Shown: positions 6,276-22,100 of the stretch, piece by piece
How the letters are laid out: each line of letters opens with the position of its first letter
Position numbering within the stretch: position 1 is the stretch's first letter
DNA from: a virus
IMG/VR virus record: IMGVR_UViG_3300023234_000009
Span: 1 to 22,178 of that record
DNA: 22,178 nt
Reading direction: 5' to 3' (one strand)
Position numbers and translations under genes: made by a program
Notes under the pieces: model-generated
What the model saw: the letters and a program-made list of their open reading frames with translations, nothing else
Databases searched by the model: none
What the model was told of the DNA's origin: nothing

Positions 6276-6476
6276 TTATTTTTTTACTAACAAAATTCTC
6301 ATCAGTATTTCTGGTCCAAGGGTAAGATCATTATCCAACGCATCTAAAATTATATCTTTATAATTTTTATTTGTGATTTCAACTTTTATTTTGGAATCTA
6401 ATGCCTTATACCAAAAACCTTCTGTTTCTTCAATTATAGTAAAGTATTTTGTTTCTTTTATTAATCTTCTTTTCAT
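6276..6476 (-). CDS. Small protein of unknown function (66 aa)
   Basis: Not recognised. The sequence opens MKRRLIKETKYFTIIEETEG, continues with a beta-like WYKALDSKIKVEI and ends in a hydrophobic helix (GPEILMRILLVKK). Its ATG overlaps the stop of the sigma-like gene by four bases (ATGA), so the two are likely translated together. The 10-base gap to the next gene and uniform direction support an operon. Confidence 0.55.
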   Translation of the reverse strand: MKRRLIKETKYFTIIEETEGFWYKALDSKIKVEITNKNYKDIILDALDNDLTLGPEILMRILLVKK

Positions 6477-7012
6477 ATCTCATCTATTATTTTTTTAATC
6501 TGTTCCTTCAATTCACTAAATTTAGCAATGATAGTTGGTTTCGGTATTTCACTCTCCATACCAATTTTCTTAAAACTATACCCTGGTGTCTGTATCTTAC
6601 GATCCAAGTAGTCCATATAAACAATCTTATATACAAAAAACTCATCTATTCTATCAAGTGCCAATTCTATATCTGCTAAACATAAATTTTCATCATACTC
6701 ATCTCCATCTGTTATATCTATCTTATCCATATTGAAGTTTTTATCAAATGTGATCTTATTATATTTCCAATTGTAAGGACTGGTCTTACTAAAACAATTT
6801 ATCTTAAACATGCTCATTATATATTTATATGCCTGTCCATCATCTATTAATCTTGTAGATTTTTTAGTATCCATCATTAAAAATTGAATCAACACCTCGT
6901 GGAATATATCACTCCACTCTGGTATATTCTTTATCAATTCCAATTTTTCCTTTAATATAAAATAATTATCACTTATCCAAACTGATGGACTTAACATACT
7001 TATATCTATCAT
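6473..7012 (-). CDS. Sigma-70-like phage protein whose start codon lies in the repeat array
   Basis: A 179-residue protein. Residues 35-85 resemble sigma region 2 as found in Bacteroidota phage proteins: DIFHEVLIQFLMMD, DDGQAYKYIMSMFKINCFS, then KTSPYNWKYNK. Residues 115-170 resemble region 4, with an acidic helix (ADIELALDRIDEF), YKIVYMDYLDRK and a putative HTH (YSFKKIGMESEIPKPTIIAK). Such proteins are thought to direct RNA polymerase to phage promoters. Oddity: the first seven residues (MIDISML) are the same as those at the head of the upstream cassette ORFs and of the large terminase, and come from the repeat; divergence begins right after (SPSVW). Met6 could be an alternative start. Assignment is by motif pattern only. 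Confidence 0.6.
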   Translation of the reverse strand: MIDISMLSPSVWISDNYFILKEKLELIKNIPEWSDIFHEVLIQFLMMDTKKSTRLIDDGQAYKYIMSMFKINCFSKTSPYNWKYNKITFDKNFNMDKIDITDGDEYDENLCLADIELALDRIDEFFVYKIVYMDYLDRKIQTPGYSFKKIGMESEIPKPTIIAKFSELKEQIKKIIDEI

Positions 7013-7271
7013 TTTTTATATTCGTAAAGAGTTGAGTTGGAAATCTACCACCTTTAAACTTTTGTTTATTTTTATCACTACTCATCAAATTACTATCACT
7101 ATTGTAATTTTTAATATATCTTTTTAATCCCTTTAAAGATGTTTCTAAATCTTCATCACTAATATAATCAACCCTATTCAATTCAACACTTATCAATTTA
7201 GGAGATATTCTTAACATACTTAAACAATTCTTTTTTGTTGTTGGTAAATAACTGGGTTGGAAATCTACCAT
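6969..7271 (-). CDS. Cassette ORF 6: constant head, variable core, constant GRFPTQLFTN tail (100 aa)
   Basis: The product begins with a divergent leader (MVDFQPSYLPTTKKNCLSML), then the constant head RISPKLISVELNRV, a unique core (DYISDEDLETSLKGLKRYIK, about 45 residues) and the constant tail GRFPTQLFTNIKNDRYKYVK, ending SISLDK. The last 44 bases overlap the start of the sigma-like gene in another frame. The 5' end lies inside the preceding cassette's tail. Compared with cassettes 1-4 the leader is altered because the junction repeat here has diverged. No function known. The head and tail resemble the boundaries of the variable segment of phage adenine methyltransferases. It may be a translated peptide or a non-expressed cassette. 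Confidence 0.5.
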   Translation of the reverse strand: MVDFQPSYLPTTKKNCLSMLRISPKLISVELNRVDYISDEDLETSLKGLKRYIKNYNSDSNLMSSDKNKQKFKGGRFPTQLFTNIKNDRYKYVKSISLDK

Positions 7272-7443
7272 TTTTACAATAATTCATAATTGTTTTTGAT
7301 CCATTCAATCTTATTAAATTGGTAGTATCTGTTGTTGGTTTTCTTGTTTCAACATAATCACCAATCCTATTCAAATCAACACTAATCAATTTCGGCGATA
7401 TTCTACAAAACATAAGTCTTAACTTTTTTTCTTTGTATATCAT
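7198..7443 (-). CDS. Cassette ORF 5 (81 aa), overlapping the terL 3' end
   Basis: It starts inside the 3' end of the large terminase gene in a different frame (MIYKEKKLRLMFC), then shows the constant head RISPKLISVDLNRIGDY, a unique core (TRKPTTDTTNLIRLNGSKTI) and a tail variant GRFPTQLFTNNKKELFKYVK. The tail differs from the other units (NNKKELFK instead of IKNDRYK), so this is a diverged copy. The 41-base overlap with terL means the repeat supplies the last terL codons. Function unknown; see cassette ORF 6 for the family resemblance. Confidence 0.5.
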   Translation of the reverse strand: MIYKEKKLRLMFCRISPKLISVDLNRIGDYVETRKPTTDTTNLIRLNGSKTIMNYCKNGRFPTQLFTNNKKELFKYVKNIS

Positions 7444-8746
7444 AATACATTCTCATCATAATCATATCAGCATAATCTGGACTTCTTCCAATCGTTTTCT
7501 TTACCTTATCTTTACCTTCCACCGCTGTCTTACCAATTTTATCTACATTCGCCATTCGGTGTGCTTGAAGTTCTTGAATGATCACATCACGATATTCTCC
7601 ATCAGGTAGTTTTATATTATTAATTGATTCACTCAACTTAAAAAAACATTGTGATCTTAAATTCATATAATTTTCTTTATTCAAAGCAGATGAACCACCT
7701 TTAAAAGCAACACACCCCTTTAAGTAATCTGCCACTCCTATACCTAATCCATCAGCATCAATCAACACATTTTTAATAGGCACTCTATATAGTTTTATTT
7801 TATCTTTAATTATATTCACTAATTGTGTAGTGTCATTTTTCTTATAACTAAAAATTTTTAGTAACTCTGTTCCACTCCATAAACCAATTACAGATTTATC
7901 ATTACCAATATTAGCAACATCACAAGTTATATATTTATCACCTGGTAAAGGATCATTATAAAAACTTTGTAGTAATTCATCATAACTAAACAGAGCAAGA
8001 TCATCATCGTCATAATCCCAGTTGCCATATAACAATCTGGATTTATTCACACTGGTTAAAGTTTGTTCCAATCCATCAATATAACTTTTATCTAAATATG
8101 GATTGTCTTGTGGGAGAGCAAGAACTATTTTTCTATAAAGTGGTAATTCGTTTTCAGTATATGGTTTGTAGTAATCTGTATATAACCAACCCTTTGAAGG
8201 ATTAGATACTAATAACAATTTAGGTATTAGTTGATATTCTTTTAACATATGGGATAATCTGGTCATTAGTTTTTCAATTGCATCTCTACTAATCTGGGAC
8301 ACCTCATCTACAATAGCAAAGGTTAAAGATAAACTCATAATCCTTTCAAAATTAGGATCACTTGGGTTTGATGTTAATTCAATTAAGAATAACTTACTAC
8401 CATTATTAAATGATATTGTCTTCTCCATTCTATTGAATCTGTAATCAACATCTTCCTTCATATCATTTAATCTAAAAAATTCCATTAAAGTTTCTACTGT
8501 GGTCATCTTCAAAGAACTTAAAGTTTCCCTACATAAACCCCCAGCGATGTTAGGATACATTAAACAATAGATAGTCGCCCAGGCAACGGCTAAGTATGAT
8601 TTACCACTCCTTACTGAACCACCAAAGAGTATCTGTGTAGTAGTAGTATCAAATAACAATTTCCATGCTTCATATTGTATTAAAGATGGTTTAAATGTTA
8701 ATTCTTTTAACTTAGGTGATATTCTTAACATACTTATATCTATCAT
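7403..8746 (-). CDS. terL: Terminase large subunit
   Basis: A 447-residue packaging motor ATPase/nuclease that threads DNA into the prohead and cuts it. Seen: Walker A GGSVRSGKS (residues 42-50), Walker B LTFAIVDE (141-148), a coupling motif LLVSNP (178-183), and an RNase-H-like nuclease with CDVANIGNDKS (Asp276), LIDADGLGIG (Asp330/332) and RSPDYADMI (Asp424/427). Length is normal for the family. Oddity: the first 13 residues (MIDISMLRISPKL) come from the array repeat and match the heads of the cassette ORFs; the family-typical start is at about residue 14 (KELTFKPSLIQYEAW). The 3' end runs into another repeat head. The gene thus sits in the array like a very large cassette, and no portal gene follows it within the window. 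Confidence 0.96.
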   Translation of the reverse strand: MIDISMLRISPKLKELTFKPSLIQYEAWKLLFDTTTTQILFGGSVRSGKSYLAVAWATIYCLMYPNIAGGLCRETLSSLKMTTVETLMEFFRLNDMKEDVDYRFNRMEKTISFNNGSKLFLIELTSNPSDPNFERIMSLSLTFAIVDEVSQISRDAIEKLMTRLSHMLKEYQLIPKLLLVSNPSKGWLYTDYYKPYTENELPLYRKIVLALPQDNPYLDKSYIDGLEQTLTSVNKSRLLYGNWDYDDDDLALFSYDELLQSFYNDPLPGDKYITCDVANIGNDKSVIGLWSGTELLKIFSYKKNDTTQLVNIIKDKIKLYRVPIKNVLIDADGLGIGVADYLKGCVAFKGGSSALNKENYMNLRSQCFFKLSESINNIKLPDGEYRDVIIQELQAHRMANVDKIGKTAVEGKDKVKKTIGRSPDYADMIMMRMYYDIQRKKVKTYVL

Positions 8747-8945
8747 TTTTTATGTTAGTGAAGAGTTGAGTTGGAAATCTGCCAGTCATATAACTTGGTA
8801 TTAGTTTTTCACAACTGATAAAGTTTTTAACCTGATCACTTTTTATAGTATCATTGATTATTCTCTTCTCTTCATAATCTCCAATCCTATTCCCATTTAT
8901 GTTTAGTAGTTTAGGTGATATTCTTAACATACTTATATCTATCAT
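8712..8945 (-). CDS. Cassette ORF 4 (77 aa), directly upstream of terL
   Basis: Head MIDISMLRISPKL is constant, followed by a diverged segment (LNINGNRIGDYEEKR), a unique core (INDTIKSDQVKNFISCEKLI) and the constant tail GRFPTQLFTNIKNDRYKYVK ending NIT. Its last 35 bases are also the first 35 bases of terL in another frame, so ribosomes finishing this ORF would be placed at the terL start. NGNRIGD resembles the DGGRIG-type sequence that opens the variable segment in phage methyltransferases. Whether the peptide has a role of its own is unknown; one plausible job is translational coupling. Confidence 0.5.
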   Translation of the reverse strand: MIDISMLRISPKLLNINGNRIGDYEEKRIINDTIKSDQVKNFISCEKLIPSYMTGRFPTQLFTNIKNDRYKYVKNIT

Positions 8946-9153
8946 TTTTTATATTGGTGAAGAGTTGAGTTGGAAATCTACCATTCTTTATATATCCTTG
9001 TTTCCCTCCATACCCTTTACCACCACCATATATATTATCATTACCAGTAAATTCTTTTCTTATACAAGTATCTCCAATTAGTTCAGTTCCAACCCTATTC
9101 AATTCAACACTAATCAATTTAGGTGATATTCTTAACATACTTATATCTATCAT
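8911..9153 (-). CDS. Cassette ORF 3 (80 aa)
   Basis: Head MIDISMLRISPKL then ISVELNRVGTELIG, a Gly-rich unique core (EFTGNDNIYGGGKGYGGKQG) and the constant tail GRFPTQLFTNIKNDRYKYVK. The core style (RVGTE..., then Gly/Asn-rich, then GRFP) is close to the internal variable segment of phage adenine methyltransferases, where the text usually reads IDGCRIGTE ... GRFPAN. It overlaps the neighbouring cassettes by 35 bases at each end. No independent function can be assigned. Confidence 0.5.
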   Translation of the reverse strand: MIDISMLRISPKLISVELNRVGTELIGDTCIRKEFTGNDNIYGGGKGYGGKQGYIKNGRFPTQLFTNIKNDRYKYVKNIT

Positions 9154-9346
9154 TTTTTATATTCGTAAATAACTGGGTGGGAAATCTACCAACTTCATTA
9201 GTCCAATTACTTATATCCCTTGTTCCCCACATAGTTGGGTTTTGGACCACTGGTATATTTCTTTTTAATATATCATTAGTTCCAACCCTATTCAATTCAA
9301 CACTTATCAATTTAGGAGATATTCTTAACATACTTATATCTATCAT
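9119..9346 (-). CDS. Cassette ORF 2 (75 aa)
   Basis: Head MIDISMLRISPKL and ISVELNRVGTND are constant with cassettes 1 and 3. The unique core (ILKRNIPVVQNPTMWGTRDI, then SNWTNEV) is unrelated to the others by eye. The constant tail GRFPTQLFTNIKNDRYKYVK follows. Both ends overlap the adjacent cassettes by 35 bases. The sharp change from near-identical flanks to an unrelated core suggests core exchange or strong core diversification rather than simple drift. Confidence 0.5.
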   Translation of the reverse strand: MIDISMLRISPKLISVELNRVGTNDILKRNIPVVQNPTMWGTRDISNWTNEVGRFPTQLFTNIKNDRYKYVKNIT

Positions 9347-9536
9347 TTTTTATATTCGTAAATAACTGGGTGGGAAATCTACCTTCTGGATTTATCTTAA
9401 CTGGTTCTAATCTTTTTCCATCTGGTTTTTCACCTACACTAAAACTATTACCCTTTGGACCATTTTTGTAATTGTAAGTATCATTAGTTCCAACCCTATT
9501 CAATTCAACACTTATCAACTTTGGACTGATTTTCAT
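9312..9536 (-). CDS. Cassette ORF 1, first of the array (74 aa)
   Basis: The product opens MKISPKLISVELNRVGTND, without the MIDISMLR leader of the later units, as expected if this is the first copy. The core reads TYNYKNGPKGNSFSVGEKPD then GKRLEPVKINPE, followed by GRFPTQLFTNIKNDRYKYVK. The KGNSFSVGEKPDGKRLEP core is the clearest match to the variable segment of phage adenine methyltransferases, which often read GNSFG.EKPDG before GRFPAN. This is therefore probably a detached methyltransferase module. Resemblance is from memory of the family, not an alignment. Confidence 0.5.
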   Translation of the reverse strand: MKISPKLISVELNRVGTNDTYNYKNGPKGNSFSVGEKPDGKRLEPVKINPEGRFPTQLFTNIKNDRYKYVKNIS

Positions 9537-9812
9537 ACTTTGAATTTATTTTTAATTGTTGTAAAAATTTCTTAAAGTGTTTATCACAATTTCTTTTCTT
9601 TTTCTTTTTATCATATTCTATTTCTATCTTCAAAATGTTTAATTCTTTTTTATCCTATATTTTTTTATATCATTTACATATTCAATATATTTATAATTTA
9701 ACCCAACATCTATTAAAGTTTTTTCTGTAAAATACTTTTTTATATGTTTGAAATAATCTTCCTTACACATTGTCTCCATACCATTTAATTCTTTTTTGTC
9801 CTATATCATAAT
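9537..9812 (-). other. Decayed region with methyltransferase 3'-end copies and a 46-aa ORF
   Basis: This gap holds no recognisable intact gene. A 46-residue ORF runs 9779-9639 (METMCKEDYFKHIKKYFTEK, ending YRIKKN). Its start lies in an exact 39-bp copy of the methyltransferase 3' end, and its end lies in a weaker third copy (about 9637-9662). Beyond it an ATG-less frame encodes a Lys-rich stretch (HFKKFLQQLKINSKYENQ) that runs into cassette 1. The picture is of repeated duplication and decay. Confidence 0.5.
9774..9812 (-). repeat. Exact second copy of the 39-bp methyltransferase 3' end
   Basis: Positions 9774-9812 and 10296-10334 are identical over 39 bp. In the upstream copy this DNA encodes the methyltransferase C-terminus (YDIGQKRIKWYG). 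The downstream copy is fused to the array core at 9811, so it is a non-functional duplicate. The two copies bracket the 162-residue gene. Confidence 0.9.
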
Positions 9813-10301
9813 TTAGGTGATATTCTTAACATACTTATATCTATCATTTATTATTTTTAAATATGGTTTAACCACATTATCAATATACAACAATTCCAAA
9901 TTCTTTATTTCTTCTAATGTGAGCAATTTACCTATTCTTATACCAGCAATAAAAGGATCAGGTATTCTATGTGATAGAGCTATTTGTATCACAAGTTCTT
10001 GTTTTTCAATTGAATTATTTTTATTTGATTCTGTGTCTATATAGATATATCTTATACAATCAAAATAATAAGGTAGTTGATTATCATATCCATAAATAAC
10101 ACAATTCTTTACAAATTTATTAAATTCTTCATCTTCTACATCATTATCATCTTTCAATTCAATTATCTTTCTAATAAAGTAATTTATATAAGTTTGATGA
10201 ATACTTGAATTATTATATAGATATAATAATTCTTCTTTATTTATTTTTTCCATATCATTATTTATTTTTTCCATATCATTATTTATTTTTTTTATCTCCA
10301 T
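9813..10301 (-). CDS. Protein of unknown function (162 aa) with repeat-derived ends
   Basis: Not recognised. The N-terminus has a short tandem repeat (KINNDMEK twice, then KINKEE) encoded by a 21-bp DNA repeat. The middle is helical (IHQTYINYFIRKIIELKDDN, NKFVKNCVIYGYDNQLPYYF), followed by ELVIQIALSHRIPDPFIAGI. The C-terminus (NDRYKYVKNIT) is the same as the cassette tails because the array core repeat supplies it. The first 23 bases overlap the methyltransferase 3' end. It is bracketed by 39-bp direct repeats of that 3' end, suggesting insertion by recombination. It could be a passenger gene of the same process that built the array. Confidence 0.6.
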   Translation of the reverse strand: MEIKKINNDMEKINNDMEKINKEELLYLYNNSSIHQTYINYFIRKIIELKDDNDVEDEEFNKFVKNCVIYGYDNQLPYYFDCIRYIYIDTESNKNNSIEKQELVIQIALSHRIPDPFIAGIRIGKLLTLEEIKNLELLYIDNVVKPYLKIINDRYKYVKNIT

Positions 10302-11241
10302 ACCATTTAATTCTTTTTTGTCCTATATCATAATAGTCTTTATTCAATTCACAACCATAGATATTATCTGTATTATAACCAGCTTTAATTAATCCACATA
10401 CTTCACTCCCACTCCCACTAAATGGAACATATACTTTTTGATTAACAATTTCAGGTAATTTAAACAGGGAACTAATTTCATATATTAAGTTGATTGGTTT
10501 AAGTGTGGGATGTATATTGAGTTGATTATCAGTATCTTCTGTTATATGATTGTTCCTTTCCTTCTTACCAACCTTAGGACAATAGTTCAGTAAATCTACA
10601 CCTTCACTCCACTCCATTATATCATCCAATACAGATTTATTCTTTGTTGGTTTAGAAAAAACACAGATAGTTTCTACCATTTGTTTTAGGGGAGCCTTGG
10701 AGTATTTGTATCCATCAAAGACTTTTGATAAAGTTGATGCTGGTTCTGTTATATCCGTGTAGGTGTTTTTACCACCAAGTGTTAGTGGCTGGTTTCCTTC
10801 GCAGTTTGGTCTCGCGTTTGGATTTGGTCCAACCACTTCCCTCTCCTTTTTCAATCTCTTATCAATCATCTTACCAGCATCAGTGGCCTTTGGAAAATTT
10901 GAAACGAAATACCAATATAAAGATTGGTTTATATCAAAACCATTTTTAGTAGCGTAGTAATGAAGTGGTCCCAATTGACGATCCATACCAAACATTAGTA
11001 AATATCCACCGTGTTTTAAAGTTCTAAATGATTCTTTAAAGAATAAATCTAAATCTGTATGTGTTAGTCCGTCCCATTTATTCATAAAATCACTGGACTT
11101 ACCTTTAATTTTATATTGTCCGTCATTATCAACGAACCAAGTTGAACCCAACTGGTATGGAGGGTCAGTAAGTATCGTATTAAAATAGTAATCATAATAA
11201 GTTTTTATATCATCAAAAACATTTTCATTTCTTATATTCAT
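10279..11241 (-). CDS. DNA adenine methyltransferase, beta-class (motif IV before motif I)
   Basis: A 320-residue SAM-dependent DNA methyltransferase. Seen: catalytic motif IV TDPPYQLGS (DPPY at residues 26-29), SFRTLKHGGYLLMFG (motif V-like region), MVETICVFSKPT, LLNYCPKVGKKERN, HPTLKPINLIYE (motif X-like), and SAM-binding motif I VPFSGSGSEV (about 272-281) followed by NIYGCELNKDYY. DPPY with this order indicates N6-adenine (or N4-cytosine) methylation, beta-class. It probably protects phage DNA from host restriction; no cognate nuclease is visible. Oddity: relatives I know often carry a variable insert (IDGCRIGT ... GRFPAN) before the NYCPK motif; here SEGVDLL runs straight into NYCPK, while the cassettes downstream carry just such inserts. 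Confidence 0.9.
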   Translation of the reverse strand: MNIRNENVFDDIKTYYDYYFNTILTDPPYQLGSTWFVDNDGQYKIKGKSSDFMNKWDGLTHTDLDLFFKESFRTLKHGGYLLMFGMDRQLGPLHYYATKNGFDINQSLYWYFVSNFPKATDAGKMIDKRLKKEREVVGPNPNARPNCEGNQPLTLGGKNTYTDITEPASTLSKVFDGYKYSKAPLKQMVETICVFSKPTKNKSVLDDIMEWSEGVDLLNYCPKVGKKERNNHITEDTDNQLNIHPTLKPINLIYEISSLFKLPEIVNQKVYVPFSGSGSEVCGLIKAGYNTDNIYGCELNKDYYDIGQKRIKWYGDKKNK

Positions 11242-11282: not shown

Positions 11283-11678
11283 TTATTTATCAATCTTTTT
11301 TTGTTCCCCTGAATTTAATTGTTTTGGTTCTGGAACTTTAATTATCAATTTCAGTGGTTCATTAAATGTTGTAGTTTGTTCTACATATTGTTTTTCAATC
11401 CATCCTCTTTCTTTACCGTGGCACTTCAAATAAAAGATGGCTGCTGTTAAATTTCCATTTAGTCCAGATTGATAAATACTTGATTCCATATTATCAATAC
11501 AAATTTCTCTTATAGTATCAATTTCATCTTTGATCCATTGCTCTTTTTCCATCCAATTATAAATAGTTCTTCTTACAATACCAGTTGCCATACAGGCTCC
11601 ATTTATATTACCACCATTGTTTTTCAAAATCTCTAAAAAATTCTCTTTATCTTTTTTCTTATAATACATAATTTTCAA
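11283..11678 (-). CDS. terS: Probable terminase small subunit
   Basis: A 131-residue protein. Residues 20-46 form an HTH (GGNINGACMATGIVRRTIYN, then WMEKEQW), the DNA-recognition part of small terminases that bind the packaging start. Residues 55-95 match the family middle: DNMESSIYQSGLNGNLTAAI, FYLKCHGKERGWIEK. The end is charged and flexible. Known: this HTH-plus-LKxxGKxRGW pattern is typical of phBC6A51-type small terminases. The gene lies upstream of terL in the same direction but is separated from it by the methyltransferase and the cassette array, which is unusual since the pair is normally adjacent. Met4 is a possible alternative start. Confidence 0.78.
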   Translation of the reverse strand: MKIMYYKKKDKENFLEILKNNGGNINGACMATGIVRRTIYNWMEKEQWIKDEIDTIREICIDNMESSIYQSGLNGNLTAAIFYLKCHGKERGWIEKQYVEQTTTFNEPLKLIIKVPEPKQLNSGEQKKIDK

Positions 11679-16171: not shown

Positions 16172-17203
16172 TTATATTGTTCCTATTTTAACTCTATCAT
16201 TTCCTATATTATCAGCACCTACTAAAAATGTGGTTCCATCACCAGAAACAGCAACAACCGCTCCTCCATATACTAATGGATCAGTTTGTAAAGTCCAATT
16301 AACTCCATAATCATTTGATATATAAACCTCTGTATTACTACCACCTATCATCACTCTTCCATCACTACTCATATCACAATTCCAAGATATTATTGATAAA
16401 GGGTTAGCCCAAGATGTTCCATTGTCATTTGACACTAAAATTCCTCGAGTTCCACTATTACTTATCATAGAGTATATTATATACTTACCATCTGTTGATA
16501 TAGCACAATCATTTATAATAGAATCCGTTCCCACCATAACACTTTTTTGAGACCAGGTCGCTCCATAATTATTAGAGTATGTCGCAACAGCAGAACTAAA
16601 TGCCCATTGATAACGTCCGTCTCCACTAATAGCACAACAATTATGGTTATATAAATAACTTCGTTCCTCTGTCCAAGTTAGCCCAGTGTCAGTGCTTCTT
16701 AAAAAGTATTCTTTATTTGAACCTGTGGCACCATCATAACTCGAACCAACTCCCACTACTAATTGAAATCTACCATCATCACTCATATCAATGTCCATTA
16801 ATATGGAGTTGCCCCCTTTATATGTTAATCCACTATTAGGAAAAGTTACACCATAATCATTTGATATGGCTACTCTCCTCGTAGAACAGGAACCCTGATG
16901 TTGTCCGGTGTAAGATGTAGTTGCCGCAAAGACACCCACTGGTAGTTGAACCCAAGTGTCTGTGCCATAATTACTATTTTGGAAAGTATTATATAAATTA
17001 GCAAATAACATATATTGCCCAGTATAAGATATAGATGCCTTATTAAAGTATGGATTTCTAACCTGAACGAAAGGTGGTGATATAGTATCAAACCAATTAT
17101 TAACTTCGCCATTAAATTTAAGCATAATTAAATCTGGATCATAACTTTCATTATAAGTTCCGTTTATGATTAGTTTTTCATCATCTAAATATATTTGTGC
17201 CAT
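16172..17203 (-). CDS. Asp-box beta-propeller protein, probable tail/receptor-binding protein (343 aa)
   Basis: Five Asp-box (BNR-like) motifs are visible: ISNDYGVTF (113-121), STDTGLTW (170-177), YSNNYGATW (209-217), VSNDNGTSW (257-265) and ISNDYGVNW (295-303). Between them a second repeat recurs: MSDDGRF, ISGDGRYQW, ISTDGKYI, MSSDGRV and VSGDGTTF. Together they indicate a beta-propeller of about five to seven blades, the fold of sialidases and glycan-binding proteins. The N-terminus (MAQIYLDDEKLIINGTYN) is probably an attachment domain. No catalytic sialidase Arg/Tyr set could be identified, so binding is safer than cleavage. It lies among the fibre genes, supporting a host-surface role. 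Confidence 0.75.
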   Translation of the reverse strand: MAQIYLDDEKLIINGTYNESYDPDLIMLKFNGEVNNWFDTISPPFVQVRNPYFNKASISYTGQYMLFANLYNTFQNSNYGTDTWVQLPVGVFAATTSYTGQHQGSCSTRRVAISNDYGVTFPNSGLTYKGGNSILMDIDMSDDGRFQLVVGVGSSYDGATGSNKEYFLRSTDTGLTWTEERSYLYNHNCCAISGDGRYQWAFSSAVATYSNNYGATWSQKSVMVGTDSIINDCAISTDGKYIIYSMISNSGTRGILVSNDNGTSWANPLSIISWNCDMSSDGRVMIGGSNTEVYISNDYGVNWTLQTDPLVYGGAVVAVSGDGTTFLVGADNIGNDRVKIGTI

Positions 17204-17223
17204 ATATCATATTATTTTTATAT

Positions 17224-17292
17224 TTAAGCGAAGGTTCCGTTGCCTCCGCCCATTATTACTATATTGGTTCCGCTTAAATATATATTACCCAT
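17224..17292 (-). pseudogene. Remnant of a glycine-rich protein, 3' end (22 aa)
   Basis: The reading frame MGNIYLSGTNIVIMGGGNGT ends FA. The final NGTFA and the following bases resemble the 3' end of the 297-residue glycine-rich gene (DGTFALI and the same AAATATAAAAATAA-type trailer). The DNA around it is also similar, so it is probably a shrunken copy rather than a working gene, although a small displayed peptide cannot be excluded. Confidence 0.4.
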
Positions 17293-17334
17293 TATTTAAT
17301 TTTATTTTAAATATCACTTAAATTATATATTTTC

Positions 17335-17427
17335 TTATTGGTCTAACATATAAACTATCACCTTTATTTCTATTGTAACTAATAAAAGTATTTCATTTGT
17401 TATATTATTAAAATATATATCACTCAT
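17335..17427 (-). pseudogene. Remnant of a glycine-rich protein, 5' end (30 aa)
   Basis: MSDIYFNNITNEILLLVTIE followed by IKVIVYMLDQ. The start resembles that of the 297-residue protein (MSEIYFNTEQQNKILLSIVS). With the fragment at 17224-17292 it looks like both ends of a duplicated gene whose Gly-rich middle was lost. Confidence 0.4.
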
Positions 17428-17441
17428 TTTATATCTTATTT

Positions 17442-18335
17442 TTATATTAAAGCGAAAGTTCCATCACTTGTAAAAGTGTGTATCTTATCACCTCCGTCTG
17501 TTGTAATTGTTCCACCTGTCGCCAGGTTAGTTCCACTTGTATATCTAATGATTACTATACCTGAACCCCCTGCTTTACCTGATGCTACTGATGAAGCACC
17601 TGCTCCTCCACCGCCACCAGTGTTAGTTGTTCCTGATGCTCCATTATATATTGTCGTATCACTACCTTTTCCACCACCACCAAGTCCGCCTGATCCACCA
17701 TCAGCGTAGTCTAATGGACCTTGTGATCCACCTCCTCCACCACCAGCATAATAAGTCGCTGATCCAGATATACTTGTTGATATACCAACACCACCAGCAC
17801 CACCATTTCCACCAGTAATAGTTGAACCAGGAGTTCCATCAGCGCCAGCGCCACCGCCACCAGCACCTGTCCTATTGCCATCATAATCTCCACCATCTCC
17901 GCCTTGACTACCAGTTCCACCAGATAAACTATTTCCACCAGCACCACCACCGCATCCACCATCTAATCCAGCAGTATCCACAGTAGTTTGTCCAGGTGCT
18001 CCTCCACCGCCACCTAAAGCAGTTAGTTTATCAAACACACTATTACCACCATTGATGCCATAAGTATCGTTGCCTGTTACTGATGAACCACCTGATCCAA
18101 TTGTTACTGATGTTGAACCTGAAAAAGTATAACCAGTTAGTTCTATAAATCCACCAGCACCGCCACCACCACCACCATCACCAGCAGCATTTAATTCACC
18201 AGAAGCACCACTCCCTCCTCCACCAACTACTAAAACCCAGAAGTTTAGTTCTGTTGATAAAACAATCGTATTTCCACTAACGATGCTCAAAAGTATTTTA
18301 TTTTGTTGTTCGGTATTAAAATATATTTCACTCAT
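17442..18335 (-). CDS. Glycine-rich adhesin-like tail protein (297 aa)
   Basis: The start is MSEIYFNTEQQNKILLSIVS, and a conserved strand WVLVVGGGGSG at about residue 33-43 leads into about 215 residues of Gly-rich sequence (GDGGGGGGAGGFIELTGY, then GGGGAGADGTPG). The end carries SGIVIIRYTSGTN and a closing TFTSDGTFALI. Known: this layout, with a VLVVGGGG opening and GIVIIRY ... GTF closing, is widespread in phage tail and adhesin proteins. The Gly-rich part probably forms a polyglycine-II-like bundle that presents variable loops to the host. Function is inferred; decayed copies of its ends lie just downstream. Confidence 0.75.
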   Translation of the reverse strand: MSEIYFNTEQQNKILLSIVSGNTIVLSTELNFWVLVVGGGGSGASGELNAAGDGGGGGGAGGFIELTGYTFSGSTSVTIGSGGSSVTGNDTYGINGGNSVFDKLTALGGGGGAPGQTTVDTAGLDGGCGGGAGGNSLSGGTGSQGGDGGDYDGNRTGAGGGGAGADGTPGSTITGGNGGAGGVGISTSISGSATYYAGGGGGGSQGPLDYADGGSGGLGGGGKGSDTTIYNGASGTTNTGGGGGAGASSVASGKAGGSGIVIIRYTSGTNLATGGTITTDGGDKIHTFTSDGTFALI

Positions 18336-18353
18336 TTCATATCTTTATTTTTT

Positions 18354-19064
18354 TTATGCTGATGCTAATGTCCAGGTTGAACCACTAATATAAACATTAT
18401 ATAAAACTCCATCTGTATTATATATTTGTAATCCATCTATCGTTCCTGGGTCAGTTGATAATAAAAGTTTCGGTATTGTTAAAACTGGTGTATCATAAGT
18501 AAATCCAGCATCACTTGTTATACCACTTAAAGTTCCATCTACTCCATCTGTTCCACTTGTCCCTGCTGCTCCATCTGTTCCACTTGTCCCTGCTGCTCCT
18601 GTTGTTCCATCTATTCCACTTGTCCCTGCTGCTCCTGCTGCTCCTGTTGTTCCATCTGTTCCACTTGTCCCTGCTGCTCCTGTTGTTCCATCTGTTCCAC
18701 TTGTCCCTGCTGCTCCTGCTGCTCCTGTTGTTCCATCTGTTCCACTTGTCCCTGCTGCTCCTGTTGTTCCATCTGTTCCACTTGTCCCTGCTGCTCCTGC
18801 TGCTCCTGTTGTTCCATCTGTTCCTGCTGCACCTGCCACTCCTGATGTTCCACTTGTGCCTGCTACTCCTGATGCTCCATCTACTCCTGATGTTCCACTT
18901 GTGCCTGCACCACCACCACCACCAATAAGATTTACTTTAAGTGCTGCATTTACTGGATCATATACAGTGTTAATTACATCTGCTGCTGATCCATAATCAT
19001 ATACATTAAGAGTTTCACCTGAATATACGTTGTTTAATATTTTTGTTGTTGAATAATATCCCAT
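18354..19064 (-). CDS. Short collagen-like fibre protein (236 aa)
   Basis: Residues 1-50 are an N-terminal attachment part (MGYYSTTKILNNVYSGETLN). Residues 50-175 are Gly-X-Y triplets (GTS, GTD, GTT, GAA), including three 27-residue repeats encoded by an 81-bp tandem DNA repeat. The C-terminal 55 residues (SGITSDAGFTYDTPVLTIPK, then a Gly-Leu-Gln-Ile and Asp-Gly-Val-Leu-Tyr stretch) resemble the modules seen twice in the larger fibre. The start is supported by AAAGGA about 7 bases upstream. The protein probably trimerises into a thin fibre or decorates the tail; the repeat copy number may vary between isolates. Confidence 0.8.
   Translation of the reverse strand: MGYYSTTKILNNVYSGETLNVYDYGSAADVINTVYDPVNAALKVNLIGGGGGAGTSGTSGVDGASGVAGTSGTSGVAGAAGTDGTTGAAGAAGTSGTDGTTGAAGTSGTDGTTGAAGAAGTSGTDGTTGAAGTSGTDGTTGAAGAAGTSGIDGTTGAAGTSGTDGAAGTSGTDGVDGTLSGITSDAGFTYDTPVLTIPKLLLSTDPGTIDGLQIYNTDGVLYNVYISGSTWTLASA
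18570..18815 (-). repeat. 81-bp tandem repeat in the short collagen-like gene, about 3 copies
   Basis: The triplet order GTT GAA GAA GTS GTD GTT GAA GTS GTD recurs three times in a row (the third copy has GID once), giving an 81-bp DNA period. The bases are almost identical, so slippage or recombination should change copy number in frame. Ends are approximate. Confidence 0.8.
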
Positions 19065-19140
19065 TTTGTTCCTTTTGTTTTTTTAGTTAAACACAATCTA
19101 AAGATTGCGAACTTACTTATATATATAAAATGGTTAGTTT
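19065..19140 (-). promoter_or_regulatory. Candidate promoter before the short fibre gene
   Basis: On the minus strand CATTTTATATATATAAGTAA lies about 55-70 bases before the ATG, followed by a small CAATC/GATTG hairpin and an A-rich leader with AAAGGA. The motif matches the TATATATAAG seen elsewhere in the window. It lies just after the long fibre gene's stop. Confidence 0.4.
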
Positions 19141-22100
19141 TTAAATATAAACTCTTTCAACCCACCATTCTACTTTTTCTATATTAATTGTTCCTGATAA
19201 GCCGGCATCTACATAAAGATAGATATAATTTCCACTTGTAATCCATCTACTATTAATTATCATCATATTATATGTTCCTGATGCTGAAATTGATCCACTA
19301 TCAAGATATTTTCTTTGATATAAAGCAGTTCCAGTTGATCCAGTTCCACCATATATACTAAAATGCCAAACTGGCATCGGGTTTTGATCTAAAAACCTAG
19401 CATCAAAATTAACTTGAACTTTGTAATTACCAGAGTTCGCTACATAGATCCCATCATTAGTATTGTTATATGCTAAATCACCATAATCAATATGGTTATT
19501 TGATGAACTCAACATAGTAACTTTTTGTTTAGTTCCAGCTGTTATATCGAAAGATTGTGATAAAGTATAACTACCTACTCCAATATATTCAACTACACCA
19601 TCTCCATCTGATCCTGATGTTCCACTTGATCCGTCATCACCACTAGTTCCTGATGTGCCATCTGTCCCTGATGTTCCATCTGTTCCTGATGTGCCATCAT
19701 CACCACTTGTTCCTGAAGTTCCAGTCGCACCATCTGCTGCACTAATAGTTATTAAATCATCCAACCAAGTTAAAGTTATATTATCGCCCTCCTTGATACT
19801 GGCTGTGTCTCCTGCTGTTATATCACTTGATCCTATTTCAATCCCTGAACTATTTAATGCTCTATAAGTCCAACTACTATAATCATCTCCATCTGTGCCT
19901 GATGTTCCATCATCACCACTAGTTCCTGATGTGCCGTCATCACCACTTGTTCCTGATGTTCCACTTGGTCCTGTTGGACCTGTTGGACCTGTTGGACCTG
20001 TTGGGCCTATTGATCCTGTTGATCCATTTACACCACTAGTCCCTGATGTTCCGGCACCAGCATTAATAGTTATTAAATCATCCAACCAAGTTAAAGTAAC
20101 ATTTGTCCCCTCTTTGATACTGGCATAATCATTTGAAGTAATTATACTATGTCCTATTTCTAATCCTGAACTATTTACTGCTCTATAATTCCACCCATCA
20201 TAATCTTCACCACTGGTTCCTGATGTTCCTGAAGCATCTACTCCATCTGTTCCTGATGTTCCGTCATCACCACTAGTTCCTGATGTTCCTGAAGCATCTA
20301 CTCCATCTGTTCCTGATGTTCCATCATCTCCTGATGTTCCTGATGTTCCTGTTGCACCTACACTACCATCTTGACCGTCTGTTCCTGATGTTCCTGAAGT
20401 TCCAGAAGCACCTACACTACCATCTTGACCGTCTGTCCCTGATGTGCCATCATCACCACTAGTTCCTGAAGTTCCAGAAGCACCTACACTACCATCTACT
20501 CCATCTGTTCCTGAAGTTCCATCATCACCAGAAGTTCCATCTGTGCCTGATGTGCCTGTTGCTCCACTATCGGCACTAACAATTATCATATCATCTAACC
20601 AAGTTAAAGTTATATTATCACCTTCTTTAATACTGGCTGTATCACCTGCTGTTATGGTGCTTGAATTTATTTCAAACCCACCACTATTTATTGCCCTGTA
20701 AGTCCAACTATCATAATCATTACCACTGGTTCCTGATGTTCCTGATGCGTCTTGTCCATCTGTTCCACTTGTGCCACTAGTTCCTGTTACTCCTATTGAA
20801 CCATCTTGGCCGTCTGTTCCTGATGTGCCATCATCACCACTAGTTCCTGAAGTTCCAGAAGCACCTACACTACCATCTTGACCGTCTGTCCCTGATGTTC
20901 CACTTGTTCCTGTATTTCCTACTGAACCATCTTGTCCATCTGTTCCACTTGTTCCTGATACTCCGTCTGTTCCTGATGTTCCACTTGTTCCTGTATTTCC
21001 TACTGAACCATCTTGTCCATCTGTCCCACTTGTTCCTGCTACTCCGTCTGTCCCTGAAGTTCCTGTATTTCCTACTGAACCATCTTGTCCATCTGTCCCA
21101 CTTGTTCCTGATAAACCATCATCACCACTTGTTCCTGATGTTCCTGCTACTCCACTTGTTCCTGCTACTCCGTCTGTTCCTGATGTTCCGTCAGTTGATC
21201 CTGTATTACTAAAAACAACTCCACTATCTGTATCGATATATAAGTTATTGAAGTTAGTGTGATCCGTTGCTCCTGTGGTTCCTGTTAAAGTTAAGAAAGG
21301 ACTATAAAGTATATCATTTGTAAAATATAAATCTACATCAAAAGTAGAACCGGTTAATCCGTCTGTGCCTGATGTTCCTGTTCCGCCATTTACTCCTGAA
21401 GTGCCTGATGTTCCATCTTGCCCATCTGTTCCACTTGTGCCAGCAGTTCCATTTCCATCTAACCCATCTGTTCCTGATGTGCCATCTGTTCCTGAAGTTC
21501 CTGATGTGCCTGTTTCACCTGTTCCTCCACTATTGGCATAAACATCACCATTTTCTTGATCTATAAACAATCCATAATAATTTGATGGGTGAGATGTAAA
21601 TTCAGTCGTTCCTGTTAAATTAATTTCAGGTGTGTATAAAACATCATTTAAGTAATAAAAATTACTATCAGTAGTAATTCCAGTTAAAGCACCATCTGTT
21701 CCGTCTGTTCCTGAACTACCTGATCCTCCGTCTGTTCCTGATGTTCCACTTGTTCCGTCTGTGCCTGATGTTCCACTTGTTCCATTTGTGCCTGAACTAC
21801 CTGATGTTCCATCTGTTCCACTTGTTCCATCATTACCTGCTGGACCCTGTCCTCCATCATCACCACTAGTTCCTGATGTTCCTGATACACCACTAGTTCC
21901 TGATGTTCCACCTGCTGGTCCTTGTGGTCCATCTGTTCCTGATGTTCCTGATACTCCGTCTGTTCCTGATGTTCCACTTGTTCCTGATACTCCGTCTGTT
22001 CCTGATGTTCCACTTGTTCCTGATGTTCCACTTGTGCCGTCTGTTCCATTTACTCCCGAAGTTCCTGATACTCCGTCTGTTCCTGATGTTCCTGATGTTC

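Follow-up and report, generated by a model that had tools for sequence, protein, structure and literature searches.

Free-standing TRD genes as probable exchangeable parts of a split phage DNA methyltransferase, in an array that engulfs the terminase gene terL

Introduction

In the viral DNA analysed here (the window, 22,178 nt in length) the gene for the terminase large subunit, terL, lies among small repeated ORFs and opens with the same residues as they do. This raises the question of what the repeats encode and how an essential packaging gene has come to lie within them. The preliminary description recognised a repeat array, which is real, but missed the nature of its units: judging from sequence, the cassettes appear to be the target-recognition domains (TRDs) of the adjoining N6/N4 methyltransferase rather than a repeat of undefined kind, and all 30 that were compared match TRD profiles. 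We hold with good confidence that the array consists of free-standing, exchangeable TRD genes of a split methyltransferase (core at 10279-11241) and has engulfed terL. The locus recurs in four further contigs (L001-L003 at 100% identity, L004 with a single mismatch over 10,041 nt), and an error of a single assembly is therefore unlikely.

The cassette array of the window

The genes around the array are all located on the minus strand. The first is a terminase small subunit gene (11283-11678) with a PHROG match of 5.1e-10 and a Pfam GP3_package match below the cut-off, which is followed by the 320 aa methyltransferase core (10279-11241). The slot behind the methyltransferase is occupied by a 162-aa ORF (9813-10301) that has no Pfam match but ends in a cassette-type tail, NDRYKYVKNIT, and by a cassette stub reading MLRISPKL* (9806-9832). 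A 46-aa ORF (9639-9779) is enclosed by repeats of the methyltransferase 3' end, a sequence that is present three times (9624-9666, 9770-9812 and 10292-10334); the copies bracket this and the 162-aa ORF, which are unrelated, as if genes had been inserted behind the methyltransferase and had duplicated its end.

The array comprises six complete cassettes in addition to the stub. Cassettes 1 (9312-9536), 2 (9119-9331, from the conserved Met), 3 (8911-9138) and 4 (8712-8930) precede terL (7403-8746), and cassettes 5 (7198-7413) and 6 (6969-7217) follow it, the tail of the last overlapping the start of the downstream gene (6473-7012), which begins MIDISMLSPSVWI. Cassette 4, directly upstream of terL, is of the GDY type that is also found in L048 (2040-2252) and L054 (1034-1246). 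The earlier placement of terL between cassette ORFs, opening with their repeat and with its 3' end entering the next repeat head, agrees with this order: the head MIDISMLRISPKL is common to terL and the cassettes, and the terL stop overlaps the ATG of cassette 5 by 11 nt. Pfam scans of 23 ORFs of the window, which is a fragment, included the six cassettes and terL and revealed no recombinase or reverse transcriptase of the kind associated with shufflons, integrons or DGRs. Elsewhere the window encodes a NUMOD4/HNH homing-type endonuclease (1166-1798) on the plus strand, opposite to its neighbours, and a BNR-repeat protein (16172-17203), and the region 16172-22049 also holds long collagen-like Gly-Thr-Ser ORFs in which 9-nt repeats are numerous.

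A methyltransferase core without a TRD

The core at 10279-11241 matches the Pfam family N6_N4_Mtase (PF01555) at 2.1e-12, with 47.9 bits against a cut-off of 26.7, and a PHROG DNA methyltransferase at 7.3e-25. Together with PF01555, the catalytic motif DPPY (DIPY in the core of L060) identifies it as a putative beta-class N6/N4 DNA methyltransferase. Full-length phage enzymes contain a NID.CR[VI]-variable-GR[FW]P.N segment between '..RKP' and 'FYCAKA'. Methyltransferase matches were present in 382 phage records, of which 8 were taken and 7 entered alignment A3 (the unannotated L067 being left out); alignment to 7 single-chain phage enzymes covers the window core almost completely (E 1.4e-42) and is interrupted precisely where these have the TRD. 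A single-chain enzyme that is 60% identical over residues 1-210, L070, has ISPSILDINGNRI..GRYPSQMF at this gap. In alignment A5 the segment of the single-chain relatives is lacking from five TRD-less cores (window, L048, L058, L060 and L072), where it would fall between 'K..KS.LDD' and 'DL..Y..KV'. The window core chain accordingly carries no TRD between its catalytic and SAM-binding parts. Of 21 new loci 17 were read, L079, L080, L083 and L089 duplicating the match coordinates of others. Six window-type cores form one clade in the tree (100/99), and the AU test allows a single origin that includes L072 (p 0.33); the separation of core and TRD may also have arisen twice, once in the window clade and once in L072.

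A second hypervariable stretch lies within the methyltransferase core of the window (10279-11241), between 'EREVVG' and 'IT.PAS'. Over 3.7 kb L048 and L049 share 99.8% identity but differ at L048 525-613 and, to a lesser degree, upstream of it; the stretch may be a second specificity element that is exchanged by recombination. Other variants were observed among the single-chain methyltransferases: those of L086 (5809-8238) and L081 (6001-8130) contain large additional in-frame stretches, the one in L086 resembling, by eye, an HNH endonuclease placed after the TRD, and the methyltransferase of L088 (5947-7023) is internally deleted from after 'DFMNKWDMPNGDF' into the TRD.

The catalytic part of the single-chain L071 enzyme is modelled confidently by AlphaFold, and the nearest PDB structures are N6-adenine enzymes, namely M.BceJIV (8urk, 2e-9), CcrM (6pbd) and RsrI (1nw6). 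Its TRD (223-347) is mostly below a pLDDT of 50, and a lone cassette reaches a pLDDT of 50 with no confident fold. With both TRD folds of low confidence, structure is silent on docking and speaks neither for nor against it.

Homology of the cassettes to TRDs

Thirty distinct cassettes were drawn from the window and related contigs. They encode proteins of 67-90 aa that share one build, with ISPKLI...NR[VI] at the head, 28-51 aa of variable centre, then GRFPTQLF, and KYVK in the tail. A TRD HMM was constructed from 94 of 100 single-chain enzymes; the remaining six (L073, Henu15, L132, L163, L170 and L179) fall outside the TRD pattern, a TRD-like stretch being visible at least partly in all of them. 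The 94-TRD profile matches every one of the 30 cassettes with 13.0-39.6 bits, compared to 10.3 for the best of 3000 shuffled cassettes, and an HMM of 12 close TRDs likewise matches 30/30 (15.5-40.2 bits; best shuffle 13.2). In the reverse direction a cassette HMM recognises 29 of the 100 single-chain enzymes at E<=0.01 and none of 1000 decoys, with 40 of 41 domain matches falling on the TRD. In the L050 cassette at 7630 the variable centre matches the TRD of the single-chain enzyme L117 at E 7.8e-15, with 27 of 37 residues identical (73%), compared to 101 of 310 (33%) for the L050 and L117 cores. A result that counts against the homology came from hhalign, in which cassettes and seven distant enzymes pair at the correct columns but with only 19.5% probability (E 1.2e-3).

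Pfam and PHROG scans of the cassettes gave nothing meaningful, and searching PDB sequences with them returned chance matches only. None of six cassettes was matched by tblastn in the phage collection, and profiles of core and cassettes found no relative in bacterial genomes. Evidence for the system thus comes from a few metagenomic viral contigs.

Arrays in relatives and exchange around terL

The number of cassettes in relatives varies from one to at least nine. In L058 and L059 the methyltransferase is followed by one cassette, and L060 has terL, methyltransferase and one cassette in this order. L050 combines a different terL with the methyltransferase and at least four cassettes. In L048 and L049 the methyltransferase is followed by five cassettes, terL and at least four further cassettes, one of them cut at the contig end, and in L051 by two cassettes, a D12 methyltransferase, terL and five cassettes. 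L057 has one cassette ahead of the methyltransferase, is L051-like through terL and then continues with a different cassette, and L054 has four cassettes and then a terL with its own start, MDINFRPL. L072 belongs to another lineage with another terminase and contains a TRD-less core, a TRD, a terS-like gene (named by position and look; it has no Pfam match), terL and a second TRD. Its two TRD genes (6923-7333 and 8940-9212) flank the terminase genes, and the tail of the second overlaps the start of the following gene; this second TRD and the region downstream of it are also present in contig L181 (100% over 4,493 nt). The D12-class adenine methyltransferase within the arrays of L051 (1289-2431) and L057 (7429-8568; Pfam 2.9e-21) opens with a cassette head, MNNISMSNISPKLIDQTEG, and terL is thus not the sole gene to start from the array. 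In L005 an HNH-like gene, named by eye and without a Pfam match, lies between terS and terL.

The expectation that the repeats recombine is borne out by L048, L051 and L057, which share nearly the same terL and differ in their 5' or 3' cassettes. Identity between L048 and L051 is 99.2% in the stretch that opens at position 2206, just ahead of where terL starts, and takes in the 3' cassettes, whereas the blocks between the methyltransferase end and terL are different (989 versus 1579 nt). For L051 and L057 an identity of 99.2% extends from the methyltransferase across terL and ends in the head of the cassette behind it, beyond which the two contigs diverge. These breakpoints indicate that cassettes have been swapped on either side of a nearly unchanged terL. 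The corollary drawn earlier, that exchange between the flanks must delete or duplicate terL, does not hold for these cases, as the exchanges are one-sided and leave terL whole; no deleted or doubled terL was found among the contigs, which are consensus sequences that rare molecules could escape. Cassettes have also been lost, leaving traces such as the MLRISPKL* stub of the window, a 36-nt remnant of a cassette tail behind terL in L005, a scar in L060 that consists of a tail alone and precedes the downstream gene, and, in L057, a stub lacking its body in front of terL.

The borrowed head of terL

By family match terL is a phage terminase large subunit. Residues 17-440 correspond to the PHROG terminase large subunit (1.2e-30), and the Pfam matches Terminase_6N (1e-9) and Terminase_3 (1.5e-8) exceed their family cut-offs (PF03237, 38.8 bits versus 22; PF04466, 34.9 versus 23.2). 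The neighbouring small ORFs open with the 13 residues that head the annotated protein, MIDISMLRISPKL. Seven copies of the 36-nt junction containing this head are present in the window at up to 10 mismatches, four of them exact, compared to 0.0 in shuffled windows. At the terL start region (8712-8746, minus strand) the junction encodes the tail of cassette 4 in another frame, and its Pro-Lys codons CCTAAG contain the TAA stop of cassette 4 out of frame.

The proposal that terL took its start from the repeat gains support from two relatives without cassettes at the terL locus. The terL proteins of L005 (68%) and L006 (58%) match that of the window only from residue 15, their own starts falling near its residue 14. 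The L006 protein begins with MKIDFQPF and the L005 frame opens TTG-EITFEPQP right behind another gene, and neither has the cassette head. Array-free relatives with the same N-terminus had been named as the sign that terL itself was the source of the head; L005 and L006 rule this origin out, but L005, given its cassette-tail trace, may formerly have had a cassette 3' of terL. L060 was considered as a further cassette-free terL and dropped, its terL start containing the tail trace QFKYVKNINI. In the L048 group terL reads MIDLSMSKELTFEP, and at the former terL start the window DNA, AAGTTAAAAGAATTAACATTT, differs from that of L048, ATGTCAAAAGAATTAACATTT, at two positions. From this comparison the window terL emerges as a cassette head placed before the former start.

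The start codon of terL is probably not the annotated one. All 30 cassettes have a second ATG (AGT-ATG), which in 8 of them is the sole in-frame Met, and the first ATG, belonging to the 'MIDIS' codons, doubles as coding sequence for the tail of the preceding ORF. On these grounds terL probably starts at 8731 with MLRISPKL-KELTF, five residues shorter than annotated, and the borrowed head would be MLRISPKL. The downstream gene (6473-7012) is a plausible source of MI..SML, given that its homologue in L005 starts MISLSMLNTSVWI. The L005 DNA behind MISLSMLNTSVWI reads as a cassette tail, IKNDKFKYVKHIGLD, in another frame and L060 has a plainer scar, LFTNIKNDKFKYVK, at the same place; for these reasons the L005 start may itself be a scar rather than the origin of MI..SML.

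Open frames, overlaps and alternative readings

The variable centres are open in frame in 30/30 cassettes, with 0.028 expected for each by shuffling, and are open in only 4 in frame +1 and in none in frame +2. Each cassette contains one TRD and has its own stop, which mostly lies within the next ORF. In 22 of the 27 junctions with a determinable upstream ORF (3 of the 30 have none) the stop of the upstream ORF ends 20 nt past the next ATG, and it is provided out of frame by the Pro-Lys codons of ISPK (CCTAAA or CCTAAG). The position of each stop inside the start of the next ORF suggests coupled translation from one message. A TRD that occurs in two arrays (L050 7413 and L058 4748) has a dN of 0.066 and a dS of 1.45, a dN/dS of about 0.05, and in some paralogous cassette pairs, including most of the more distant ones, dN is near dS, which fits diversification or weak constraint.

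These properties bear on the possibility that the cassettes are a silent library, that is, unexpressed TRD copies which recombine into a full-length methyltransferase in the manner of gene conversion. A variable centre between constant ends and the turnover of cassettes between strains are what such donors would display. The local core, however, has no TRD slot sequence for them to recombine into, and an own ATG, the consistently open frame and the mostly fixed 20-nt overlap are not needed in donors; nor does a library account for the lone cassette right behind the core in L058 and L059. We consider a silent library unlikely. It is more doubtful still that a repeat element merely spread around terL and that the cassettes are the non-functional wreckage of one former TRD. 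The stubs and scars (MLRISPKL* in the window, the tail traces of L005 and L060, the body-less stub of L057) and the repeat-derived heads or tails on several neighbouring genes would suit such decay, whereas 30 open centres, the low dN/dS of the TRD shared by two arrays and the match of one centre to the TRD of a distantly related single-chain enzyme speak against it. Least probable is that real TRD cassettes serve another enzyme or act as small DNA-binding proteins, since one candidate, the D12 methyltransferase, lies inside two arrays (L051 and L057) with a cassette head but is absent from those of the window, L048, L050, L054, L058 and L060, and what the core lacks is precisely the segment that the cassette family represents.

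Proposed mechanism

For the split methyltransferase it is proposed that the catalytic chain has lost the TRD that is present inside related single-chain enzymes, and that the TRD would instead be encoded as separate small proteins with constant ends (ISPKLI..NRV and GRFPTQLF..KYVK) and a variable centre. Each small TRD protein would associate with the core and determine which sequence is methylated, and one core with several TRDs could protect the phage DNA from several restriction enzymes. The sequences themselves show the homology to TRDs, the segment absent from the core, the overlapping ORFs, the turnover of cassettes next to terL and the head of terL, whereas binding of the core in trans, different specificities, coupled translation and a role in anti-restriction are what we infer. 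With the constant ends as recombination arms, the array may gain, lose and swap cassettes. With the array placed at the terminase genes, cassettes would have settled on either side of terL; as the start region of a cassette holds the stop of the preceding ORF, terL behind cassette 4 would use a cassette start and retain MLRISPKL as a short N-terminal extension. Overall, and with moderate confidence, we favour a modular methyltransferase operating through the exchange of subunits, in which one TRD-less core is served by tandem single-TRD subunits, each with its own motif, and the phage edits its TRD repertoire by cassette recombination around the terminase genes.

If this is true, nature has a system in which DNA specificity resides in interchangeable proteins of about 75 aa that serve one enzyme, and these could be used as plug-in parts for programmable methylation. 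Comparing the methylome with the cassette content would then give a direct readout of phages tracking host restriction. The locus would also be an example of a packaging gene that, although essential and enclosed by an array that recombines, keeps a usable start by borrowing that of the array.

Comparison with known systems

The nearest known enzymes are the beta-class N6/N4 phage methyltransferases (PF01555; PHROG 67; for instance in Bacillus phage BSP18), which have the same catalytic core and the same TRD slot. In single-chain PF01555 enzymes one TRD is part of the chain, whereas the chain described here has none and TRDs are encoded apart from it, in one to at least nine ORFs. Type I M and S genes likewise overlap and provide a separate specificity subunit, and the coupling suggested here would be a further parallel. 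The S subunit of type I systems serves a different methylase family. The window core has no Pfam match to the HsdM family at E<=1, its best match being PF01555, and the cassettes, with one TRD each instead of the two of an S subunit, are single TRDs of about 75 aa present in many copies beside a PF01555 core. In EcoKI the hsdM and hsdS genes overlap by 1 nt and their translation is coupled (PMC3510504), and the type I S subunit is described as carrying two TRDs and conserved helices (PMC12707154).

Exchange of TRDs by recombination at flanking repeats is reported for S genes of Helicobacter pylori as domain movement (DoMo), in which the repeats of x-TRD-y recombine and TRDs move, vanish or are added (PMC3077401). 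The cassettes share the constant ends (30/30) and have mosaic breakpoints at their heads (L048, L051 and L057), but DoMo acts within one S gene, whereas here whole overlapping genes are exchanged in an array that also engulfs terL. Several targets for one phage enzyme are reportedly known from the Bacillus phage C5 methyltransferases, which Trautner et al. in 1996 are said to have described as enzymes with several TRDs that act in anti-restriction. Those TRDs lie in one polypeptide that methylates cytosine at C5; the cassettes end in their own stops and are predicted to be separate polypeptides that accompany an N6/N4-type core. CRISPR arrays and integrons are roughly alike in stocking specificities, but the modules stocked here would be expressed proteins for anti-restriction.

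No array of separate TRD-only genes for one core was found in the literature covered (titles and abstract openings, with few subscription papers). The location of the array has a precedent in lactococcal 936 phages, in which the terS-terL interval is described as an insertion hotspot with methyltransferase, Dam-type and HNH genes, and a protective function of the terminase-region methyltransferases has been demonstrated (PMC4190342). The 936 genes are described there as whole enzymes, with no mention of a TRD array or of an altered terL start. The TRD array is accordingly what we regard as the new part of the system, and its position in the terminase region as a variant of a known habit.
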